From NCBI RefSeq assembly GCF_900105115.1, contig NZ_FNRV01000001.1:868001-932000 (forward strand): DNA of 64,000 bases. Reading direction: 5' to 3'. Shown here in pieces: positions 37,307-46,980 of this stretch. Origin of the DNA: Pseudomonas mohnii (GTDB lineage Bacteria > Pseudomonadota > Gammaproteobacteria > Pseudomonadales > Pseudomonadaceae). The notes beneath the pieces were generated by a model. The model was not told where the DNA came from, did no database searches, and worked only from the letters and a program-made list of their open reading frames with translations. A program made the translations under genes and the position numbers. Positions within the stretch are counted from its first letter, which is position 1, and the number at the start of each line of letters is the position of its first letter.

Positions 37307-37498
37307 TCAGCGACTGTTACAGGTTTTGATGCCCAGCAACGTATAGACAGGGCAGAAACGGAAAACACCAGTGGCCAGCGGTACTAAACCTATCCAACCC
37401 CATGCGCCGATCACACCGGACAGACTGAGGCCAATGAGAAGCAGACCCGCGAGAATGCGCGGGCTACGATCAATGGCTACGCCGGCTCTCCAGCGCAG
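37307..37498 (-). CDS. DUF2892 inner-membrane protein (YgaP C-terminal-like)
   Basis: The reverse strand encodes IDRSPRILAGLLLIGLSLSG, then VIGAWGWIGLVPLATGVFRF and CPVYTLLGIKTCNSR, which is the DUF2892 module: two membrane helices and a CP-Y--LG--TC end. Family proteins or domains accompany rhodaneses and sulfur transporters. The start is unclear: no ATG, GTG or TTG lies in frame near the expected N-terminus, only a CTG at 37498 or an ATT at 37474 (the ATT sits where the family's usual 'G-T-IDR' begins). The frame overlaps the preceding yedE-like stop codon, so start by translational coupling on a non-standard codon is possible. Alternatively the gene has lost its start. Confidence 0.55.
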   Translation of the reverse strand: MRWRAGVAIDRSPRILAGLLLIGLSLSGVIGAWGWIGLVPLATGVFRFCPVYTLLGIKTCNSR

Positions 37499-37889
37499 TA
37501 AACAACAACATGCCGGCCAGCATGGCCAACATGAACACGATCACTTGCCAGTGCCCTGTCAGCAGAATGGCCACTGCGGGGCCAGGACAGATGCCCGCTA
37601 TTCCCCAGCCGATACCGAACACCAGGCTCCCGCCAATCAAGCGCGCGTCCAACTCACGTTTGATCGGTAGCTGCATTGGCCCTCCCAACAGCGAACTGGA
37701 TTGTCGGCGGGCCCAGGTCAGCGGGCCGATGGCGACGCCAATGGCCCCGACCATGACCAACCCCAGGGAAGGGTCCCAGGCACCGGTCAAATCCAGGAAA
37801 GCGAGTACTTTGCCCGGGTTGGCCATGCCTGCCAGAAGCAGGCCCAGGCCGAACAGCAGGCCAGCAATGAACGCGGTCAGTTTGCTCAT
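37470..37889 (-). CDS. YeeE/YedE family half-transporter (DUF6691), second subunit
   Basis: The 139 aa product has four hydrophobic segments and the small-subunit YedE motif set: LLFGLGLLLAGMANPGKVLAF, RLIGGSLVFGIGWGIAGICPGPA. The Cys in GICPGPA stands at the position of the substrate-handling Cys in YeeE/TsuA thiosulfate channels. It starts two bases after the stop of its partner gene. Together the two form a split YeeE, probably carrying thiosulfate or another sulfur compound. ATG at 37889 has CCCC-rich upstream bases, so coupling to the upstream gene probably drives translation. Confidence 0.82.
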   Translation of the reverse strand: MSKLTAFIAGLLFGLGLLLAGMANPGKVLAFLDLTGAWDPSLGLVMVGAIGVAIGPLTWARRQSSSLLGGPMQLPIKRELDARLIGGSLVFGIGWGIAGICPGPAVAILLTGHWQVIVFMLAMLAGMLLFTALESRRSH

Positions 37890-37891
37890 GT

Positions 37892-38326
37892 TCAACCCCC
37901 CAGCAGATGACGCAAGACAAACACCGTGACGAAACCGCTGAACATGAAACACGCCGTGGCGACCATCGATCGCGGCGAAAGGCGCGATAGGCCGCAGACC
38001 CCATGGCCACTGGTGCAACCTGATCCGTATCGGGTGCCGATGCCCACCAATACACCGGCGACGATCAGTCCGACCCCGCCACTTTTGAACTCAATCTGTG
38101 GCAGCGCGGTGAACATGCCCCATAGAAGCGGCGCGATGAGCAGGCCCAGGAGAAAAAGTGCTTTCTCACTCACCCCCTCGCTCCCTCGCTGTAAAAGACT
38201 GCCGATCAGGCCACTGATGCCTGCGATACGCCCGTTGGCGACGACGAATAGGCTGGCCGCCAGACCAATCAATGCGCCACCGGCAAGGGATGACCAGGGA
38301 GTGAAGTTGAGCCAGTCGACATTCAT
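37892..38326 (-). CDS. YeeE/YedE family half-transporter, first subunit
   Basis: The 144 aa product has four hydrophobic segments with the GGALIGLAASLFVVANGRIAGISG and GTRYGSGCTSGHGVCGLSRLS stretches. The GSGCTSGHGVCG loop with two Cys is the signature of YeeE/YedE sulfur channels, where these Cys are thought to pass a sulfur compound. GGAG lies eight bases before ATG at 38326. It forms a pair with the next gene. The 176 bp gap upstream of it, behind the TSUP gene, is long for this operon and holds a hairpin and a TATAAT on the minus strand (38462-38467), so an extra promoter is possible. Confidence 0.85.
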   Translation of the reverse strand: MNVDWLNFTPWSSLAGGALIGLAASLFVVANGRIAGISGLIGSLLQRGSEGVSEKALFLLGLLIAPLLWGMFTALPQIEFKSGGVGLIVAGVLVGIGTRYGSGCTSGHGVCGLSRLSPRSMVATACFMFSGFVTVFVLRHLLGG

Positions 38327-38502
38327 GAGCTTTCTCCGGCGCAAAATGGTTGATAACGAGTCTGGGTGACGGCCCATGCCGCGCGGTTCAGCTGCTGGCG
38401 ATCTGATTCGGTCACTGATTGGAACTCATCACTGGCAGTTGAAGCCGGGCGCAAGTCCCGGATTATAGGCGAGGCCTGGAAGTGGACGGTTCTTGCACAT
38501 GA

Positions 38503-39303
38503 CTAAATGGCTTTCACCAGCAAGGCCACCGCCACCACGATGGAAACGGCGGCGAAGCCTCGTTGTAAGTGTGGGCCCGCCAGCCGTGCCGCGATCAGAC
38601 GTCCGCCGACCATTCCGACCAATGCGCCAGAGGAAAACGGAATGGCCACTGCCCACTGCAAGTGCCCGGCCGCAGAGCTTGCAGCAACGCCGGAAATTGA
38701 AACCAGCGCAATAATGGCAAGAGACGTTGCAAGCACCGACTGCGCTGTCAGATTGGTGTATCGCTGGAGCGCCGGCACCATCACAAAGCCACCGCCCACG
38801 CCGAGCAAGCCGGACAGCCCTCCCGCGACAATGCCGGAGAGCGTGAGTGCCCATGCACACGGACCCGTCCAGTTGAGTTTTCCTCGGTTCACATCCAATA
38901 GACACGGCGGCGGCTTGGATGTAACGGGGGTCTTCGACTCCGTGGAGGGTGATAGCGATCGTTGATACACACGGAACGCAACGTACATCAGCACGAAGGC
39001 AAACATGATCGTCAATGGACGGTTAGGCGTGCGCTGCGCCAGCCAAAGGCCAAGAGGGGAACATACGATCCCCGCCCCTGCCGTTAAAAGCGCAGCTTTA
39101 TAGCGGACGGTGCCGTTTTTGAGTCCCATCACGGCACCCAGGGTCGCGGCCAAACCGACAGCCAGTAAACCGATTGGCCCTGCCTCGGCCATGCTCAGTC
39201 CCGCTCCAAACACCAGTAACGGAACAGCCAGGATGCCCCCTCCGGCACCGGTCAGCGCCAGAATGACCCCGACAGTGAGCCCAAGCAGTAAGACGACGAT
39301 CAT
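38503..39303 (-). CDS. TSUP (TauE/SafE) family sulfur-compound transporter
   Basis: The 266 aa product has about eight hydrophobic segments and the TSUP motifs ALTGAGGGILAVPLLVFGAG and GGLSGLLGVGGGFVMVPALQRYT. Members export sulfite or move thiosulfate and other sulfur anions. It follows the SQR fusion gene with 28 bp between and AAGGAG before ATG at 39303. Removing sulfite made by persulfide dioxygenase would be a natural task in this operon, and this is an inference from context. Confidence 0.88.
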   Translation of the reverse strand: MIVVLLLGLTVGVILALTGAGGGILAVPLLVFGAGLSMAEAGPIGLLAVGLAATLGAVMGLKNGTVRYKAALLTAGAGIVCSPLGLWLAQRTPNRPLTIMFAFVLMYVAFRVYQRSLSPSTESKTPVTSKPPPCLLDVNRGKLNWTGPCAWALTLSGIVAGGLSGLLGVGGGFVMVPALQRYTNLTAQSVLATSLAIIALVSISGVAASSAAGHLQWAVAIPFSSGALVGMVGGRLIAARLAGPHLQRGFAAVSIVVAVALLVKAI

Positions 39304-39331
39304 CTCAGTCTCCTTGTTTTCAGGCCTGATC

Positions 39332-41002
39332 TCATACGTCAGCCATCTCGGGTTTCGCCATCCACTCACGGCCCTTGAGCATTCCCTTCCAATACAGCGG
39401 TGGAAGAATCCGCTCCTTGAGCAGCCATGCCAGCCTCGATGGCCGGGTACCGTCAATCAGCCAGGATGGAAAGCTGGGGGCGACCTTGCCGCCATAGGTG
39501 AACTCAGCCAGTACGATCTTGCCGCGTTCGACCGTCAGCGGGCAGGAGCCATAACCGTCATAATGGGCGCTGCCTTTCGCTTTACCCATTGCCGCCAACA
39601 CATTATGGGCAACGACTGGCGCCTGTTTGCGTGCTGCAGCCGCAGTTTTGGCGTTGCTGGAGTTGGCAGCGTCTCCGAGCGCGTGAATATTGGCCCAGCT
39701 TTTATGGCGCAAAGTGGCAGGGTCGACATCAATCCAGCCGGCCGCGTCAGCGAGGGGGCTGATCCGAATGAAATCCGGCGCGATCTGTGGTGGCACCACA
39801 TGAAGCATATCGAAGTCACGCGTCACGACATGGGCGCTGCCATCCGGATTAACGCAGTTGAACGTCGCGGTCCGTGCCGGTCCATTCACGCGGGTGAGTG
39901 TGTTGCCGAAATTCAGGTCGATACCATAGGCCTTGATGTATTCCATCAGTGCGGGCACATAGTCGGGAACCCCGAACAACACCGCGCCGGCGCTGCAAAA
40001 CTCGATCTCGACGTTGTGCAGTACACCGCTACGTTTCCAATGATCGGCAGACAGGTACATGGCTTTTTGCGGCGCCCCGGCACATTTGATCGGCATGGGC
40101 GGTTGCGTGAAAACTGCCCGGCCACCACGCAGTTGCTGCACCAGTTCCCACGTATAGGGGGCAAGGTGATACAGGTAGTTTGAAGTCACACCGTTGCGGC
40201 CCAGGGTGTCCGACAACCCCTCGATGGCATGCCAATTGAGCTTCAGACCAGGGCACACGATCAGTTGTTCGTATTTAACGACTCTGCACCCATCGAGAAT
40301 GACGGCATTTCTCTCGGGTTCGAAAGCGGCGACCGCCGATTTGATCCAATGCACACCGTGGGGGATGGTCGTACCCATCGTGCGCACAGTTTGGGGCGCG
40401 TCGAAGACGCCACCGCCGACAAGTGTCCAGCCTGGCTGGTAGTAGTGCACATCTGCCGGATCGATGATGGCGACGTCGAGCCCAGGCTCTCGCGCCAGCA
40501 AACTGGATGCCGCCGCGATACCTGCCGCACCGCCGCCGATGATGACCACGGCATGCTGCGCCTCAGCCACTTCGACCGGCGTACGCCCCTGGTTGGCAAT
40601 CCGGCGAATGACGCCTTTCATATCGAACCCGGCTTTTTTGGCCGTCTCGACGATGTATGGCAGGGATTGTTTGCCCGCTTGTGACAGGGCCCACATCGTT
40701 GTCGAGCGCATGCCGGAACGGCAATAGGCCAACACGGGTTTTGGAAGCGATTCAAGGAGCTTGCCGAAGGCAATACCTTGCTCATCAGTGACTTTGCCTG
40801 ATTCCGCAGGAAGGTAGTGCGCTTCAATGCCGACCGCTTCGGCGGCTCGTTTGATTTCGGCAAACAAGGGCTGATCACTGCCTTCGCCATCGGGACGGTT
40901 ACACACGACGGTGCGAAAACCCGCTTCCTTTAGTTCAGCCAATTGGTTGGGAAAAATCTGTTCGGATACCGACAGTCCGGGCGCAAGGTGGCGAATGTCC
41001 AT
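39332..41002 (-). CDS. Fusion of DUF442 sulfurtransferase/phosphatase-like domain and sulfide:quinone oxidoreductase
   Basis: The 556 aa product joins two modules. Residues ~1-140 are the TIGR01244/DUF442 (Blh N-terminal-type) domain with the loop AYCRSGMRST, Cys94 as nucleophile. From about 151 the FAD fold begins (AVVIIGGGAAGIAAASSLLA), followed by the SQR-specific stretches DPADVHYYQPGWTLVGGG, VCPGLKLNWHAIEG, PPMPIKCAGAPQKAMYL and NIHALGDAANSSNAKTAAA. SQR oxidises sulfide to polysulfide at the membrane and passes electrons to quinone; the fused sulfurtransferase may hand sulfane sulfur to glutathione. It lies 53 bp behind the persulfide dioxygenase gene. Confidence 0.9.
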   Translation of the reverse strand: MDIRHLAPGLSVSEQIFPNQLAELKEAGFRTVVCNRPDGEGSDQPLFAEIKRAAEAVGIEAHYLPAESGKVTDEQGIAFGKLLESLPKPVLAYCRSGMRSTTMWALSQAGKQSLPYIVETAKKAGFDMKGVIRRIANQGRTPVEVAEAQHAVVIIGGGAAGIAAASSLLAREPGLDVAIIDPADVHYYQPGWTLVGGGVFDAPQTVRTMGTTIPHGVHWIKSAVAAFEPERNAVILDGCRVVKYEQLIVCPGLKLNWHAIEGLSDTLGRNGVTSNYLYHLAPYTWELVQQLRGGRAVFTQPPMPIKCAGAPQKAMYLSADHWKRSGVLHNVEIEFCSAGAVLFGVPDYVPALMEYIKAYGIDLNFGNTLTRVNGPARTATFNCVNPDGSAHVVTRDFDMLHVVPPQIAPDFIRISPLADAAGWIDVDPATLRHKSWANIHALGDAANSSNAKTAAAARKQAPVVAHNVLAAMGKAKGSAHYDGYGSCPLTVERGKIVLAEFTYGGKVAPSFPSWLIDGTRPSRLAWLLKERILPPLYWKGMLKGREWMAKPEMADV

Positions 41003-41055
41003 AAGTGACTCCGTTATGGGTATTTTTTCTTATGCGTTTTTTGGGGTAGGCAACG

Positions 41056-41934
41056 TCAGGCGACGTTGAGCGGGATTTTCAGGTAGCGCGTTCCGTTCGC
41101 TTCAGGCTCGGGAAAGTGCCCGGCGCGCATGTTGACCTGAACCGAAGGCAGGATCAGTGTCGGCATTTCCAGCGATGCATCACGCTTTGTGCGCATCGCC
41201 ACAAACTCCTCCTCACTGATGCCGTTACGCACATGAACGTTGTGGTCGCGCTGGTCGGCGACGGTACTGACGAATTGCACCTCGCGGCCACCCGGCTGAT
41301 AGTCGTGGCACATGTAGAGCAACGTATTGGCCGGCAGGCTCAGCACCTTGTTGATTGACTGGAACAACGTGCGCGCGTTGCCGCCGGGAAAGTCACAGCG
41401 TGCAGTACCGTAGTCGGGCATAAACAAGGTATCGCCAACGAATGCAGCCGTTTCGGTGCCGTCGCTGATCACATAAGTCATACAGGCCGGCGTATGGCCA
41501 GGTGTATGGAGTGCGTGGCATTGCAGCGTGCCAATGGTGAACGGCTCGTCATTGACGAACAGGTGATCGAACTGACTTCCATCGCGGGGCATCTCGCCAG
41601 CGGTATTGAACAGCGTGCCAAACACCTCCTGCACCGTCGAAATCTGGTTGCCGATGCCTATTTTCCCACCAAGCTTTTCCTGCAGGTAGGGCGCTGCCGT
41701 CAGGTGGTCTGCGTGGACGTGGGTCTCGAGAATCCAGTCGACCCTCGCATTGAGTTCGTTCACCCTCGCAATCAATTGGTCGGCAGAGGTTGTGCCGGTG
41801 TGGCCGGACTTTGGGTCGTAATCCAGTACGCTGTCGATCAACGCGCAGTGGCGGGTCGCCTCATCCAGCACAAGATAGCTGACGGTATTGGTAGCAGAAT
41901 CGAAGAATCCTTCGACGTGAAGTTTTACACTCAT
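41056..41934 (-). CDS. Persulfide dioxygenase (Blh / ETHE1-like metallo-hydrolase)
   Basis: The 292 aa product is a metallo-beta-lactamase-fold protein with LETHVHADHLTAAPYLQEKLGG (HxHxDH), HALHTPGHTPACMTYV and TAAFVGDTLFMPDYGTARCDF; the last stretch (D-TLF-PD-GTARCDFP) is typical of type II persulfide dioxygenases. Iron-dependent PDO oxidises glutathione persulfide to sulfite in the cytoplasm. It is the first gene of the operon, transcribed from the sigma-54 promoter at 41988-42004. Sometimes called Blh in bigR operons, but here the regulator is of the FisR type rather than BigR. Confidence 0.9.
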   Translation of the reverse strand: MSVKLHVEGFFDSATNTVSYLVLDEATRHCALIDSVLDYDPKSGHTGTTSADQLIARVNELNARVDWILETHVHADHLTAAPYLQEKLGGKIGIGNQISTVQEVFGTLFNTAGEMPRDGSQFDHLFVNDEPFTIGTLQCHALHTPGHTPACMTYVISDGTETAAFVGDTLFMPDYGTARCDFPGGNARTLFQSINKVLSLPANTLLYMCHDYQPGGREVQFVSTVADQRDHNVHVRNGISEEEFVAMRTKRDASLEMPTLILPSVQVNMRAGHFPEPEANGTRYLKIPLNVA

Positions 41935-41987
41935 TGGCCTGTCTCCTTAGGGGCTTTTACCAAGCCGCTCACACTAAGGACTGACAT

Positions 41988-42004
41988 AGCAATAAGTCTG
42001 CCAG
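41988..42004 (-). promoter_or_regulatory. Sigma-54 (-24/-12) promoter of the sulfur operon
   Basis: Read on the minus strand the site is CTGGCAGACTTATTGCT. The GG at -25/-24 and GC at -13/-12 have the strict 10-base spacing of sigma-54 promoters (TGGCAC-N5-TTGC consensus). It lies 54 bases upstream of the persulfide dioxygenase start, downstream of a palindromic cluster at 42098-42140. Confidence 0.75.
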
Positions 42005-42097
42005 ACCCAAACAGAGCCAAAATATGATCATATCTATTTGATTTTATTGGTTTTAATTTTTCAACACGGTTTTATTTTTTCTGTATCCATCTGGATT

Positions 42098-42140
42098 CAC
42101 TGCCATTGGCAGTGCCTGTTGACAGAGTTGGCAGTGCCAC
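42098..42140. promoter_or_regulatory. Enhancer (UAS) candidate for the FisR-type activator, sulfur-operon side
   Basis: CACTGCCATTGGCAGTG (42098-42114) is a near-perfect palindrome with 8-base arms, and TTGGCAGTGCCAC (42128-42140) adds further TGGCAG/GTGCCA half-sites. The cluster is about 94-136 bp upstream of the sigma-54 promoter at 41988-42004, the usual distance for an enhancer-binding protein. The same half-sites recur upstream of the cyd operon. Confidence 0.7.
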
Positions 42141-42170
42141 AACAGGATGGATGGATTCTCAGGAGCCACG

Positions 42171-43496
42171 ATGAAGACTTTCTTGCCCACCCCAACCCAC
42201 CCACTCCCGCACTCGGATCAAGTGCAGTCACTGGTTTCATTTCTTGAGCACGAACCACAGCCGATGATCGTGCTCGATCCGAACTACAACATCCTGGCTG
42301 CCAACACGGCCTATCAGCGGCAGTTTGGCAGCGCTGACAAGCCCTTTATTGGCCATAAGTGCTATCAAATCTCACACCACTACGACGTTCCTTGTGATCA
42401 GGCGGGTGAGAACTGTCCGATGAAAAAGGCCCAGGAAATGCGCGGACCGGATCGTGTCTTGCACATTCACCACACGCCTCGCGGTCCAGAGCACGTCGAC
42501 GTCGAACTGCGCCCGATTCTGGATGAGCACGGTGTCATCACGGCCTATGTGGAGCGCCTCACACTGGTTCGCAGCGCCTCAGCGCGACCCAGCAACGAAG
42601 GCCTGGTTGGCCGCTCACCGGCCTTTAACCTTGCCCTGTCCGAGTTGCAGCGGGTGGCCCCATCCATGCTACCGGTACTGCTGCTGGGCGAGTCCGGTAC
42701 GGGCAAAGAGCTGTTCGCCCGCGCCGTACATGAAAACAGCGACCGGGCCACGGGCCCCTTCGTCGTCGTCGATTGCTCGGGATTGCCCGAAACGTTGTTT
42801 GAGAGCGAACTGTTCGGCCATGAAAAAGGGGCATTCACCGGGGCCACCACGCGCAAGCCCGGACTGGTTGAAACGGCCCAGGGCGGCACCTTGTTTCTTG
42901 ATGAGATTGGGGATGTTCCACTGGCCATGCAGGTGAAACTGTTGCGCCTGATCGAATCGGGCACCTATCGCCGTGTCGGCAGTGTCGAGACCCTCCACGC
43001 CAACTTCAGGCTAATTGCCGCGACCCACAAACCCCTGGAAAAAATGATGGAGAACGGTGAGTTCAGGCAGGACCTGTACTACCGCATCAGCGCCTTTCCC
43101 ATTCAGTTGCCCCCCTTGCGCAACCGGGTTGAAGACATCGGTTTGCTTGCCAATTCATTTCTACAACGTGCCGGTACCGGCAAGCGCCGGCTGACAATAG
43201 AGACAGAGGCGCTGACACAACTGCAGCGCCATTCCTGGCCCGGCAATATCCGCGAATTACGCAATGTGCTGGAAAGAGCCAGTCTGTTCGCTGACGATGG
43301 AGTGATCCGCTCCACACATTTACCCCAGGCATCCGTGGCGATACCTCCTCAGCCCCCCGCGTCAACGCCTTTCGACGGCAGCTCGCTGGCGCAGACACTG
43401 GCCACCTTCAAAGGCACCCGCAGTGAACTGGCCAGGCACATGGGCATCAGCGAACGTACGTTGTACAGACGACTGAAAGAACAAGGTTTGGCCTGA
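42171..43496 (+). CDS. fisR: Sigma-54-dependent activator, FisR-type sulfane-sulfur sensor
   Basis: The 441 aa product has a PAS-like N-domain (residues ~25-130), a central AAA+ domain (GESGTGKE Walker [14 protein letters not shown] sigma-54 contact loop; LFLDEIGD Walker [17 protein letters not shown]) and a Fis-type HTH at the end ([20 protein letters not shown]). The N-domain has Cys64, Cys75 and Cys82 with spacings of 11 and 7, the same spacing as Cys53/64/71 recalled for FisR of Cupriavidus, which sense polysulfide. ATG at 42171 has AGGAG six bases upstream; an ATG at 42147 lacks one. It lies between the two operons it probably activates. Confidence 0.85.
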
Positions 43497-43519
43497 TCAA
43501 TCGCACTCACGCCGCACGA

Positions 43520-43562
43520 CTGCCAACGACTGCCAATCACTGCCACCCTGGCAGGTTGGCAG
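43520..43562. promoter_or_regulatory. Enhancer (UAS) candidate for the FisR-type activator, cyd side
   Basis: Five half-sites lie in 43 bases: CTGCCAA at 43520-43526 and 43530-43536, CTGCCA at 43540-43545, TGGCAG at 43549-43554 and TTGGCAG at 43556-43562. They form nested inverted repeats built from the same half-site as the cluster at 42098-42140. The cluster starts 22 bp after the fisR stop codon and 90-130 bp before the cyd sigma-54 promoter. Confidence 0.7.
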
Positions 43563-43649
43563 CGCATTGACCCGCCAACGCCTGCCGCGCCAGCTCACCA
43601 TGATCACTAAGTCACTGTTTTAAAACGATAAAAACAGACGCCCTCCCCT

Positions 43650-43665
43650 TGGCATGCCGTGTGCT
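43650..43665 (+). promoter_or_regulatory. Sigma-54 (-24/-12) promoter of the cyd operon
   Basis: The site reads TGGCATGCCGTGTGCT, with GG and GC 10 bases apart as required for sigma-54. The -12 element is GTGCT instead of the consensus TTGCT. It lies 12 bases before the cydP start, so the transcript leader would be very short or the start lies close to the ATG. Confidence 0.6.
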
Positions 43666-43676
43666 AACTGCAAGTC

Positions 43677-43853
43677 ATGACCATTTCCGACAAACGACTT
43701 CGACGCCATCTGCTCACGGCAGTAGTGATCAAACTACTGGTGCTGACAGTGCTGTGGTGGCTGTTCATCCGGGATTCGCACGTCAGTGTCGACCCGAACA
43801 TTATCGGCAACCGTTTCGGTGTACCCACCTCGACTCAAGGGGCAAGCAAGTGA
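43677..43853 (+). CDS. cydP: Putative cytochrome oxidase small subunit CydP
   Basis: The 58 aa product starts MTISDKRLRRHLLTAVVIKL and continues LVLTVLWWLFIRDSHVSVDP, with one membrane helix and a C-terminal NIIGNRFG segment. This is the CydP pattern: a short single-span protein encoded just before cydA in several proteobacterial bd oxidase operons. Its stop codon overlaps the cydA start (GTGA at 43850-43853). It probably helps assembly or stability of the oxidase. Confidence 0.8.
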   Translation: MTISDKRLRRHLLTAVVIKLLVLTVLWWLFIRDSHVSVDPNIIGNRFGVPTSTQGASK

Positions 43854-45421
43854 TTTCAGAACACCTGGTAGATTTGTCTCGGCTGCAGTTCGCAGCCACT
43901 GCGCTTTACCACTTTCTTTTCGTACCGCTCACGGTTGGCATGGTGTGGCTGTTGGTCATCATGGAAAGCGTCTATGTGATGACCGGCAATGTCATCTGGA
44001 AAGACATGACGCGCTTCTGGGGCAAGTTATTCGGCATCAACTTCGCCTTGGGGGTGACAACCGGTATCACCCTGGAATTTCAGTTCGGTACCAACTGGGC
44101 GTATTACTCGCACTACGTGGGCGATATCTTCGGTGCGCCGCTGGCCATTGAAGGCCTGATGGCATTCTTTCTTGAATCGACCATGATCGGCCTGTTCTTC
44201 TTTGGCTGGGATCGCCTGAAGAAAGAGCACCACTTGCTGGTCACGCTGCTGATGGCCATCGGTACCAACCTCTCGGCGCTGTGGATTCTGATCGCCAATG
44301 GCTGGATGCAGAACCCGGTGGGTTCAGAATTCAGTTACATCACCATGCGCATGGAGATGGTCGATTTCTGGGCGGTGGTGTTCAACCCGGTGGCCCAGGC
44401 CAAATTTGTGCACACGGTGTCCGCCGGTTATGTCACCGGCTCGATGTTCGTGTTGTCAATTTCCAGCTGGTACTTGCTCAAGCGTCGTGATGTCGAGTTC
44501 GCCAAGCGCAGTTTTCGGGTGGCGGCGGCTTTCGGCCTGGCCTCCGTGCTCAGCGTCATCGTGCTGGGGGATGAGTCGGGTTACACGGTGGGTGAGGCGC
44601 AGCAAACCAAGCTCGCGGCCATGGAAGCCATGTGGGAAACCAAACCCGCACCGGCAGGCCTGACCTTGCTGGCCAGCATCAATGAAGCCGAGTCCAGAAA
44701 TAATTGGGAAGTCGACGTGCCGTGGGTGATGGGCTTGATCGGCACGCGCTCGGTCAGCAAGCAGATCCCGGGCATTCATGACATCAAAGAGAAAAACCGC
44801 GCGCGCATTCTGCGTGGCATTACCGCCGTCAATGCGCTTGAAGCCCTGCGGGCCGATCGCACCGATAAGGCGGCGTTCGAGACCTTCGAAGCCTACAAGG
44901 CGGACCTGGGCTTTGGCCTGCTGCTGAAAAAGTACGTTGAGGATGTCAACCAGGCCACGCCGGCGATTATCGACAAGGCAGTGAACGATACCGTGCCGCG
45001 CGTGACGCCGATGTTCTGGGGGTTCCGGATCATGGTCGCCCTTGGTTTTGCCATGCTCCTGCTGTTCGGGGTGGCCTTCTGGAGCACCTTGCAGTCGGCC
45101 TGCACACGCCGCCGCTGGCTGCTGCGTTGGGCGCTCTGCATGCTGCCCGCGCCCTGGATTGCCTGCGAGCTGGGCTGGTTCGTCGCTGAATATGGCCGTC
45201 AACCCTGGACCATCTACGGCGTGCTGCCCACTCACATGAGTGTCTCCACCCTTAGCATCAATAACCTCTATGGCTCGCTGGCAGGCTTCGTCGCTTTCTA
45301 CACCGTGCTGCTGGTGGTTGAAATGTTCCTGATGGTCAAGTTCGCCCGCCAAGGGCCCGGCAGCCTCGGAACCGGCCGTTATGCTCACGATGCCAACATG
45401 AAGGAACTCCACCATGCTTGA
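43850..45421 (+). CDS. cydA: Cytochrome bd ubiquinol oxidase subunit I, long Q-loop type
   Basis: The 523 aa product begins at GTG 43850 (MISEHLVDLSRLQFAATALY). It has nine membrane segments, His21 as the b595-type ligand region, HTVSAGYVTG for the b558 His, and FWGFRIMVALGF for the b558 Met. The Q-loop is long and E. coli-like (EAMWETKPAPAGLTLL and DLGFGLLLKKYVEDV), placing it in the L subfamily. The usual Pseudomonas cyanide-insensitive CioA has a short loop. The oxidase passes quinol electrons to oxygen; bd enzymes resist sulfide, which fits the neighbouring sulfide genes. It overlaps cydB by 8 bp. Confidence 0.93.
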   Translation: MISEHLVDLSRLQFAATALYHFLFVPLTVGMVWLLVIMESVYVMTGNVIWKDMTRFWGKLFGINFALGVTTGITLEFQFGTNWAYYSHYVGDIFGAPLAIEGLMAFFLESTMIGLFFFGWDRLKKEHHLLVTLLMAIGTNLSALWILIANGWMQNPVGSEFSYITMRMEMVDFWAVVFNPVAQAKFVHTVSAGYVTGSMFVLSISSWYLLKRRDVEFAKRSFRVAAAFGLASVLSVIVLGDESGYTVGEAQQTKLAAMEAMWETKPAPAGLTLLASINEAESRNNWEVDVPWVMGLIGTRSVSKQIPGIHDIKEKNRARILRGITAVNALEALRADRTDKAAFETFEAYKADLGFGLLLKKYVEDVNQATPAIIDKAVNDTVPRVTPMFWGFRIMVALGFAMLLLFGVAFWSTLQSACTRRRWLLRWALCMLPAPWIACELGWFVAEYGRQPWTIYGVLPTHMSVSTLSINNLYGSLAGFVAFYTVLLVVEMFLMVKFARQGPGSLGTGRYAHDANMKELHHA

Positions 45422-46550
45422 TTACGTCACCCTGAAAATTATCTGGTGGGCACTGGTCGGCGTACTGCTGATCGGCTTCGCCATCATGGACGGCCACGAC
45501 ATGGGGGTCGGCACCTTGCTGCCCTTTGTAGGCCGCACGGACCTGGAACGCCGCGTTGCGATCAACACCGTAGGGCCGCACTGGGACGGCAACCAGGTGT
45601 GGTTCATCACTGCCGGCGGCGCACTGTTCGCGGCGTGGCCGGTGGTGTATGCCACCGCGTTCAGCGGGTTTTACTGGGCGATGATTCTGGTCCTGTGGGC
45701 GCTGTTCTTCCGCCCGGTGGGTTTTGACTATCGCAGCAAGATTCACAACGCCAAATGGCGCAGCACGTGGGACTGGGGTCTGTTCATCGGCGGGGCCGTG
45801 CCGCCGCTGGTGTTCGGCATCGCGTTCGGTAACTTGTTGCAAGGCGTACCGTTCCACTTCAACGACATGCTGGTATCGACTTACACCGGGAGTTTCTGGC
45901 AACTGCTGAACCCTTTCGCGCTGCTGACCGGCGTGGTGAGCAGTGCCATGATCACTCTGCAGGGCGGTACTTATCTGGCGCACCGCACTGAAGGCGTGAT
46001 CCAGTCCCGTGCCATCAAGGGCGGGGTTGGCGCGGCGCTGGTGCTGCTGTGCACATTCGTCATTGCCGGCGTCTGGCTGCAATCGATCGACGGCTATCGC
46101 ATTACCTCGGTGGTGGATATCGCCGGGTTGCCGGACATTCTCAACAAGACCGTGGTACACGAAGCGGGGGCCTGGATGGCCAACTATGGCCACTATCCTG
46201 CGTTGTGGCTGCTGCCTGCGCTTGGCTTGGCGGGCGCCGCCGGTGCCGCGCTGTTGCTGCTGATGCGCCGCACACTGGCCGCGTTTGTCGCTTCGTCGCT
46301 CGCGGTGATCGGGGTGATCAGCACCGCCGGTGTATCGATGTTCCCCTTCGTCATGCCGTCGTCAACGGTGCCTGCGGCCAGCCTGACTGTGTGGGACAGC
46401 GTCTCCAGTCATTTAAGCCTGGCCATCATGTTCTGGGCCACGTTGATCTTCATGCCCCTGATCGTGATTTACACCTCGTGGGCGTACCGCGTGATGCGCG
46501 GCAAGGTCACCGTTGCTCAGATCAAAGCCAACGAACATTCCGCCTACTAA
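45414..46550 (+). CDS. cydB: Cytochrome bd ubiquinol oxidase subunit II
   Basis: The 378 aa product starts MLDYVTLKIIWWALVGVLLI. It contains GFAIMDGHDMGVGTLLPFVG, NTVGPHWDGNQVWFITAGGALFA and a C-terminal cluster with STAGVSMFPFVMPSS, all typical of CydB. Eight hydrophobic segments are expected. CydB forms the heterodimer with CydA and contributes the proton channel. Its start lies within the end of cydA, and cydX follows after a short gap. A GAAGGAA-type site precedes ATG at 45414. Confidence 0.95.
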   Translation: MLDYVTLKIIWWALVGVLLIGFAIMDGHDMGVGTLLPFVGRTDLERRVAINTVGPHWDGNQVWFITAGGALFAAWPVVYATAFSGFYWAMILVLWALFFRPVGFDYRSKIHNAKWRSTWDWGLFIGGAVPPLVFGIAFGNLLQGVPFHFNDMLVSTYTGSFWQLLNPFALLTGVVSSAMITLQGGTYLAHRTEGVIQSRAIKGGVGAALVLLCTFVIAGVWLQSIDGYRITSVVDIAGLPDILNKTVVHEAGAWMANYGHYPALWLLPALGLAGAAGAALLLLMRRTLAAFVASSLAVIGVISTAGVSMFPFVMPSSTVPAASLTVWDSVSSHLSLAIMFWATLIFMPLIVIYTSWAYRVMRGKVTVAQIKANEHSAY

Positions 46551-46573
46551 GTGACGGCAGAGGAGTAATAAAC

Positions 46574-46696
46574 ATGTGGTATTTCGCCTGGATGCTGGGG
46601 GTCGGTTTCGCATTGCTACTGGCCATATTGAATGCGATGTGGGGTGAGAACGAAGCTGGCCGCGCCATGAGCGACAATGACGAGACACTGTCATGA
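46574..46696 (+). CDS. cydX: Cytochrome bd small subunit CydX
   Basis: The 40 aa product (MWYFAWMLGVGFALLLAILN followed by AMWGE) matches the CydX pattern: MWYFAW start, one membrane helix and N-AMW-E motif. CydX stabilises the heme groups of bd oxidase in E. coli. A GAGGAGT site lies 9-15 bases before ATG. Its stop overlaps the ybgE start (ATGA at 46693-46696). Confidence 0.93.
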   Translation: MWYFAWMLGVGFALLLAILNAMWGENEAGRAMSDNDETLS

Positions 46697-46980
46697 CGCC
46701 GGGTGTCGCGACGCCCCCGCCCTCCTCACACATTCAAGTGCCGAGTTTGGTTATCGCATTAGTCATCATGCTCGCGTGTACGCTCTACCCTCCCATGATG
46801 GTCTCCCCCGATGGGAAGCCTGACCATGCGCTCGCGACTGCATTGTTCGTCGCCATGAGCGTGGCCTTTGTGAGAGGTGTGGGTTTTGTCCCGCGGATGC
46901 TTGTCTGGCGGTGGCTGTTCTCAGGCTGGACCTGCTTTGCGGCACTTGCAGTGGCCGGCGGGGTCAAGTTTCTGCATTGA
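46693..46980 (+). CDS. ybgE: Cyd operon protein YbgE
   Basis: The 95 aa product has three hydrophobic segments (SLVIALVIMLACTLYPPMMV, LATALFVAMSVAFVRGVGFV, WRWLFSGWTCFAALAVAGGV). Its length, its place behind cydX and the V-R-GVGF-PR motif match YbgE, a membrane protein of unknown role found in cyd operons of gamma-proteobacteria. It overlaps cydX by 4 bp. The operon ends here; no clear terminator follows within the next 200 bp. Confidence 0.82.
   Translation: MTPGVATPPPSSHIQVPSLVIALVIMLACTLYPPMMVSPDGKPDHALATALFVAMSVAFVRGVGFVPRMLVWRWLFSGWTCFAALAVAGGVKFLH

Follow-up and report, generated by a model that had tools for sequence, protein, structure and literature searches.

FisR of Cupriavidus pinatubonensis JMP134 is a sigma-54 activator of sulfide-oxidizing genes, belongs to a FisR-pdo-sqr system, and has three conserved cysteines (PMC8614764, PMC9774590). 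It is a sensor of sulfane sulfur and forms a tetrasulfide between C53 and C64 (PMC8614764, PMC9495516); these and the other papers cited here are represented by partial texts. We analyzed a 64,000-nucleotide stretch of the Pseudomonas mohnii genome (contig NZ_FNRV01000001.1, positions 868,001 to 932,000), referred to below as the window, that contains a fisR-type gene (42147 to 43496, plus strand). The gene separates a minus-strand run encoding persulfide dioxygenase (PDO), sulfide:quinone oxidoreductase (SQR), and TauE from a plus-strand cydP-cydA-cydB-cydX-ybgE run (43677 to 46980). This order had been proposed in the initial annotation, and Pfam and NCBIfam matches upheld it. The window protein resembles the C. 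pinatubonensis FisR in its three cysteines and its sulfide-oxidizing neighbors. However, the targets named for the latter are sulfide-oxidizing genes only (PMC8614764, PMC9774590). We consider it highly likely that the one FisR-type, sulfane-sulfur-sensing sigma-54 activator of the window controls both the pdo-sqr and the cyd promoter, which would let cytochrome bd-I re-oxidize the quinol made by SQR.

The bd-type oxidases of Escherichia coli and Pseudomonas aeruginosa are insensitive to sulfide (PMC9774590, PMC10968556), and sulfide induces bd oxidases in these two species and in Acinetobacter baumannii (PMC9774250, PMC7315123, PMC10968556). High H2S leaves respiration by the P. aeruginosa CIO unaltered, and NaHS raises cioA about two-fold (PMC10968556). 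For E. coli, a 2022 paper stated that the mechanism of sulfide induction of bd was unknown before the YgaV data (PMC9774250). YgaV, an SqrR/BigR homologue, is like the window FisR a sulfide-responsive regulator that affects cydAB (PMC9774250, PMC11858517), and the cydAB read counts go up in a ygaV mutant (PMC9774250). Unlike the window FisR, it is of the SqrR/BigR type and acts on many genes, and the available text describes neither sigma-54 nor an SQR/PDO linkage for it (PMC9774250, PMC11858517).

Two other FisR loci share part of the layout. In A. baumannii, as in the window, FisR is divergent from pdo-sqr-tauE, and sulfide induces cydAB too; unlike in the window, cydAB is unlinked (A1S_1433-1434), and FisR dependence was shown for A1S_1708-1711 only (PMC7315123). 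In Cupriavidus metallidurans CH34, the FisR is 69% identical to the window protein, pdo-sqr is divergent from it, and TGCCA/TGGCA clusters lie on both sides of fisR (by eye). However, a same-strand TauE gene, not cyd, follows fisR there, and the -24/-12-like site ends in GT rather than GC (by eye). Thus, the two-sided layout also exists with another downstream gene.

The initial annotation regarded a FisR-regulated bd oxidase as a non-standard linkage, and our literature search agrees. The available parts of PMC12170894, PMC8148161, PMC11858517, PMC9918477, PMC8469610, PMC9774590, and PMC12856154 hold no link between FisR and a bd oxidase. Across the open literature searched (mostly titles and the beginnings of abstracts; main text, not supplements), we found no paper linking FisR to cyd, or a bd oxidase with PDO under FisR. 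FisR regulons are known, and the bd oxidase as a recurrent member appears to be new in this literature.

Promoters and half-site clusters on both sides of fisR

The window FisR has a PAS domain (PAS_4), an AAA+ sigma-54 activation domain (Sigma54_activat), and a Fis-type helix-turn-helix domain (HTH_8), and its gene adjoins pdo and sqr, which have a sigma-54 promoter. An in-frame ATG at 42171 is an alternative to the start at 42147 and may be the real one. Inside the PAS match are the three N-domain cysteines noted earlier, C-x10-C-x6-C, at spacings of 11 and 7; the first spacing equals that of C53 and C64 in C. pinatubonensis (PMC8614764). The spacing is identical in all 107 FisR homologues read, in part by construction because the homologues were collected by similarity. 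The motif was found in none of 78 control (non-FisR) sigma-54 activators. We built a quick tree of 90 of the 107 rows, with Shimodaira-Hasegawa-like approximate likelihood ratio support only; the 17 omitted rows are all relatives of retained rows, and 32 of the 87 inner branches are weak. In this tree, the window FisR, the Pseudomonas clades A and B described below, L001 from an Oxalobacteraceae metagenome-assembled genome (MAG), and the C. metallidurans FisR form one set with 100% support. The window FisR probably senses excess sulfur in the form of sulfane sulfur, as judged from its cysteines and relatives.

The tree also contains a distinct FisR-type clade of 33 rows, made up of most of L203 to L239, with the same cysteine spacing. 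An SQR or PDO relative is nearby in 17 of the 33 rows. L208 and L232 of this clade share blast cluster c1 with L199 of another clade, and the L199 SQR matches the solved SQR structure 3sz0.

Both runs are preceded by a GG-N10-GC site of the sigma-54 type. The site of the pdo-sqr run, CTGGCAGACTTATTGCT (41988 to 42004, minus strand), is seen in the consensus of 25 aligned loci, and that of the cyd run, TTGGCATGCCGTGTGCT (43649 to 43665, plus strand), is also conserved. A sigma-54 promoter before each operon had been claimed from the window alone. Presence and conservation bear this out, but significance in a single genome does not: the window contains 15 GG-N10-GC sites with scores of 11 or 12, of which these promoters account for 2, so one genome proves nothing about promoters. 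We therefore rejected the single-window consensus score as evidence.

The half-sites are more distinctive. The two densest TGCCA/TGGCA clusters of the window are in the two intergenic regions beside fisR, with five half-sites at 43521 to 43561 and four at 42101 to 42139. We propose these as FisR upstream activating sequences (UAS; 43520 to 43561 on the cyd side and 42100 to 42139 on the pdo side). We also generated 60 sequences of 64 kb from a first-order Markov model; their best 70-bp stretches held four half-sites in 7 cases and never five. Genome-wide (6.6 Mb), a three-half-site pattern gave 9 matches at 7 separate places, compared with 1 match for the reversed-pattern control. Five of the 7 places are in open frames of 197 to 433 codons and have no sigma-54 site (at most one mismatch) 40 to 250 bp away. 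The two places of the FisR locus are the only intergenic ones, and each has a sigma-54 site at enhancer distance. The clusters are 96 and 89 bp from their promoters, in agreement with the matching distances first noticed. Position and conservation suggest that FisR binds the half-sites on the cyd side. A single CTGCCA...TGGCAG pair was uninformative genome-wide, with 22 sites per strand versus 26 in the control, and was dropped.

We suggest the following scheme. When sulfane sulfur builds up, the PAS-domain cysteines of FisR would be modified. FisR at the TGCCA/TGGCA clusters about 90 bp upstream would then open both sigma-54 promoters, each of which points away from fisR. The pdo-side promoter would provide PDO, SQR, and TauE, by which sulfide would be oxidized, electrons passed to quinone, and products exported. 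The cyd-side promoter would provide cytochrome bd-I, which is expected to resist sulfide and would re-oxidize the quinol. Such a FisR switch very probably turns the sulfide-oxidizing enzymes and the respiratory oxidase on together, keeping respiration going during sulfide destruction. Sulfane sulfur as the signal, RpoN dependence of cyd transcription, and this physiology are predictions from sequence.

The ATG of cydP is only 12 nt past the -12 GC of the sigma-54 site (43650 to 43679), and 12 to 13 nt past it in relatives read by eye. Being so close, the cydP mRNA may be leaderless or near-leaderless.

Conservation and proposed exchange of cyd control in Pseudomonas

FisR (E ≤ 1e-100) occurs at 119 places in 118 of 398 Pseudomonas genomes, and P. 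mohnii has a single one. We define clade A as the 28 closest FisR loci (79% identity or more), window included, and all were read. PDO or SQR is near FisR in 28 of 28, and cydA is within 5 kb in 18. Two further, near-identical loci (L122 and L123) retain the promoter, UAS, and cydP, with cydA cut off near its start (by eye), and in L137 the locus ends at a contig edge with the cyd promoter present. The stretch read contains no cyd in the other 7, whose 260 bp downstream of fisR also lack a sigma-54 site (at most one mismatch); pieces of the UAS are still there in 2 of them (L124 and L136). Across an alignment of 19 fisR-cydP regions, conservation averages 0.85 for the UAS and 0.91 for the sigma-54 site, compared with 0.67 between the two and 0.27 over the 21 bases that follow the fisR stop codon. 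Absence of the half-sites from orthologous loci would have spoken against the proposal, and they were found. A search of other genomes for this gene order and its pair of sigma-54 sites had been suggested; the arrangement, together with the two half-site clusters, is kept in part of the genus and in the Oxalobacteraceae MAG.

One genome (G189, locus L160) has lost pdo and fisR from the locus, and the cyd sigma-54 site and half-sites are kept. A clade-B FisR with PDO-SQR is present elsewhere in this genome. The locus is thus a natural test of regulation in trans.

E. coli-type CydA was found at 58 places in 57 of the 398 genomes. The places split into 20 of the window type (93% identity or more) and 38 of another type (62 to 66%). 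FisR is present in 20 of 20 genomes with the window type versus 10 of 38 with the other type (base rate 118/398; lists combined by hand), although the former figure is largely the linkage itself. For promoter scoring, we used 19 of the 20 window-type places (G006 has too little upstream sequence) together with L001. All 20 loci have a perfect and conserved GG-N10-GC site with TGGCA/TGC upstream of cydA; an ANR-like box (at most one mismatch) accompanies it in 3. Among the 16 other-type loci scored (of 38 places), a perfect sigma-54 site occurs in none and a one-mismatch site in 2; an ANR-like box at the same tolerance is present in 13 and is perfect in four of these. In the window, the best match to the ANR/FNR box TTGATNNNNATCAA upstream of cyd has three mismatches. 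The cyd operon of this lineage carries a FisR/sigma-54 promoter in place of the ANR/FNR-like box that most of the other cyd operons read in the genus possess. Among bd-type oxidases such as bd-I and CIO, this sigma-54/FisR-type promoter is what sets the window operon apart.

Clade B differs in its neighbors: a bd gene is within 5 kb of FisR in 1 of 15 loci read. We considered one clade-B locus with cyd (L162) as an independent regulatory link but discarded it, since the cyd of this locus is preceded by a perfect ANR-like box and by no good sigma-54 site. In L171 (G319), a fisR sensor-domain remnant with an in-frame stop is between PDO and an ANR-type cyd operon (by eye). Clade-B pdo promoters, for example in L088 and L090, have the conserved -24/-12-like site TGGCATGCATCTTGA, with GA replacing GC at -12 (by eye).

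FisR and bd oxidases beyond the genus

The Oxalobacteraceae MAG has sqr-pdo-fisR-cyd in the same order as the window, with both clusters and both promoters, and its CydA is 89% identical. In the order of the window (Pseudomonadales), FisR (E ≤ 1e-95) is present in 55 of 293 genomes. A bd subunit I gene is within 5 kb in 23 of the 33 FisR loci read, or in 20 of 29 when four loci picked after seeing CydA are left out. In twelve of these loci, the genes of a CIO-type bd oxidase and PDO lie in the order cydA-cydB-PDO on a single strand that diverges from FisR, and SQR comes next in 11. Apart from the interval between cydB and PDO in L272 and L302, the genes are closely spaced, and the oxidase appears to share an operon with PDO. 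At another eight loci, the genes divergent from FisR are an E. coli-type cydAB, and PDO is not in view (a weak SQR-family match is nearby in L271 and L295); three have other layouts. We scored 19 of the directly divergent bd loci, leaving out L303. All 19 have a sigma-54 site with at most one mismatch, and 10 have one without any mismatch. The background is about 0.05 and 0.005, respectively, per 250 bp, with some stretches scanned being longer.

In the class, a bd gene is within 5 kb in 9 of 60 FisR loci read. In 7 class loci, cydA runs divergently from fisR; a sigma-54 site with at most one mismatch precedes fisR in 4 of them if the -12 element must be GC, and in 6 if GA or GT is also accepted. 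Among 10 bd loci beyond the order, a scan near cydA gave a high-scoring sigma-54 site in only 3. Two named loci beyond the order, from Thalassotalea (L002) and Pseudoalteromonas (L265), carry a FisR of 45% identity with cydAB running divergently from it. The 78 control loci span many phyla, are not taxon-matched, and have a flank below 4 kb in 21 cases; in none of them does the non-FisR sigma-54 activator have a bd, SQR, or PDO gene in its 5-kb surroundings. The label "bd nearby" requires at least 16 changes on the FisR tree, gains and losses combined.

A Tll0287-like gene (PF11845 in L002) is between FisR and cydAB in L002 and L206. In L183 and L196, a member of the same blast cluster, c10, adjoins both FisR and an SQR-family gene.

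Several observations weigh against joint control or limit its reach. The -24 element itself includes TGGCA, so the half-site cluster and the promoter are not fully independent. Three of the 20 window-type cyd loci (L001, L138, and L139) keep the ANR-like box. By coordinates, E. coli-type cydA is beside FisR at only 1 of 91 clade-B places, and this is L162, whose cyd has the ANR-like box and lacks a good sigma-54 site. In the class, a bd gene is missing from the 5-kb surroundings of FisR in 51 of the 60 loci read (flanks below 4 kb in 17). A sigma-54 site (at most one mismatch) is missing from the 500 bp preceding fisR in L002, L265, and the class locus L193. The FisR-unlinked cydA of a low-GC family of the order lacks such a site in 6 of 6 genomes, in 3 of which the FisR loci were read. 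We had considered that a promoter might be expected there and rejected this; sulfide induction of cyd in that family, if any, works otherwise. Should the family be Acinetobacter, which is a guess, then cydAB, whose induction by sulfide is reported there, probably responds indirectly.

The ANR-like boxes suggest a second input. FisR and sigma-54 may be the main control of cyd, with residual ANR or integration host factor (IHF) acting at the AT-rich stretch at 43610 to 43640, between UAS and promoter. This element is conserved (0.77) and sits about where L001, L138, and L139 have the ANR-like box (at most one mismatch), which in all three is at about the same distance from cydA (234 to 235 bp). 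An oxygen input may persist in those loci, and the window element may be a degenerate ANR or IHF site. The three mismatches of the best ANR-box match in the window argue against such an input, which is compatible with control by FisR and which we regard as possible rather than probable.

A different signal is unlikely. The FisR-like regulator at bd loci could sense nitric oxide (NO), oxygen, or general redox state, with the bd oxidase serving NO or oxidative-stress tolerance. The effector is not readable from sequence, the P. aeruginosa bd-type oxidase recovers fast from NO (PMC10968556), and the eight order loci with E. coli-type cydAB have no PDO in view. However, the window FisR groups with the C. 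metallidurans FisR at full support and keeps all three cysteines, every clade-A FisR is beside PDO or SQR, and bd, PDO, and SQR are in one apparent operon at 11 order loci. Least probable of all is that chance or shared transfer put cyd beside fisR, that another regulator such as ANR drives it, and that the cluster 3' of fisR is no cyd enhancer: this would fit the patchy occurrence of FisR in the genus, the ANR-like boxes of the other-type cyd loci, L162, and the probable movement of the locus indicated by the MAG, but promoter and UAS are retained in all 20 scored loci with window-type cyd, the promoter is absent from the 7 clade-A loci without cyd, the linkage turns up repeatedly, with bd types and layouts that differ, and the G189 sites outlive fisR at the locus.

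Control of both runs by FisR, as the initial annotation had proposed, is thus well supported by comparison. Our confidence is high for the FisR-bd linkage and lower for the physiology. More broadly, bd oxidases of both the CydAB and the CIO type are likely to be a recurrent core of the FisR regulon, mainly in the window's order. In some loci, they would form a cydAB-PDO-SQR module that leads from sulfide through quinone to oxygen and is induced by its own intermediate, and in Pseudomonas the control of a cyd operon would have passed from oxygen via ANR to sulfane sulfur via FisR/sigma-54. The locus would offer a direct, cis-encoded route by which the product of SQR activates the oxidase that SQR needs. 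We predict that the bd oxidase in many members of the order answers to sulfane sulfur, not only to oxygen. The set of loci supplies promoter positions and natural deletion lines for testing this control.

Genes of the two runs

The plus-strand run begins with cydP (43677 to 43853; NF045611, 55.7 bits against a cut-off of 29.6). It is followed by cydA (43850 to 45421), which has a GTG start and is of the E. coli bd-I type. CydA matches PF01654 above its cut-off (1.4e-172) and aligns with its top structural match, the bd-I subunit 1 structure 6rko, across residues 6 to 514 (2.4e-211); NCBIfam equivalog models match, but under their cut-offs. The His and Met positions that we take to be the heme ligands are identical in 6rko. 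The next genes are cydB (45414 to 46550; TIGR00203, above cut-off), cydX (46574 to 46696; TIGR02106, above cut-off, and PF08173), and ybgE (46693 to 46980; PF09600, 1.7e-17). With the heme ligands and a long Q-loop in CydA, together with CydB and CydX, the product is predicted to be cytochrome bd-I. The P. mohnii genome has one further bd subunit I gene elsewhere.

On the minus strand, the PDO gene (41056 to 41934) encodes a metallo-beta-lactamase fold (PF00753, 3.5e-15). The top structural match of the protein is 4ysk (9.6e-132), and it also matches persulfide dioxygenase ETHE1 4chl (2.9e-23); NF040641 is the top NCBIfam match, yet under its cut-off. The SQR (39332 to 41002) is mitochondrial-like, with a Pyr_redox_2 domain, and its best solved-structure match is the mitochondrial SQR chain 6mp5 (2.1e-87). 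Its N-terminal DUF442/BLH_phosphatase domain (PF04273, 1.3e-27), also matched by TIGR01244, suggests that sulfurtransferase-like and SQR functions may be fused. The TauE/SafE (TSUP) gene (38503 to 39303; PF01925, 6.1e-41) encodes a putative sulfite/thiosulfate exporter.

The PDO, SQR, TSUP, and YeeE genes had been described as one operon. The gene content stands, but the single unit is doubtful: YeeE starts 176 bp past the TauE stop, so the YeeE-, YedE-, and YgaP-like genes may form a separate unit. They encode a YeeE-like (Sulf_transp) half (37892 to 38326, minus strand; PF04143, 3e-07) and a YedE-like (DUF6691) sulfur transport half (37470 to 37889, minus strand; PF20398, 6.7e-50). The tail of the sulfur run is a YgaP-like transmembrane fragment (37307 to 37465, minus strand) whose start codon is unclear and which matches PF11127 over 37310 to 37465 (E = 3.9e-16).

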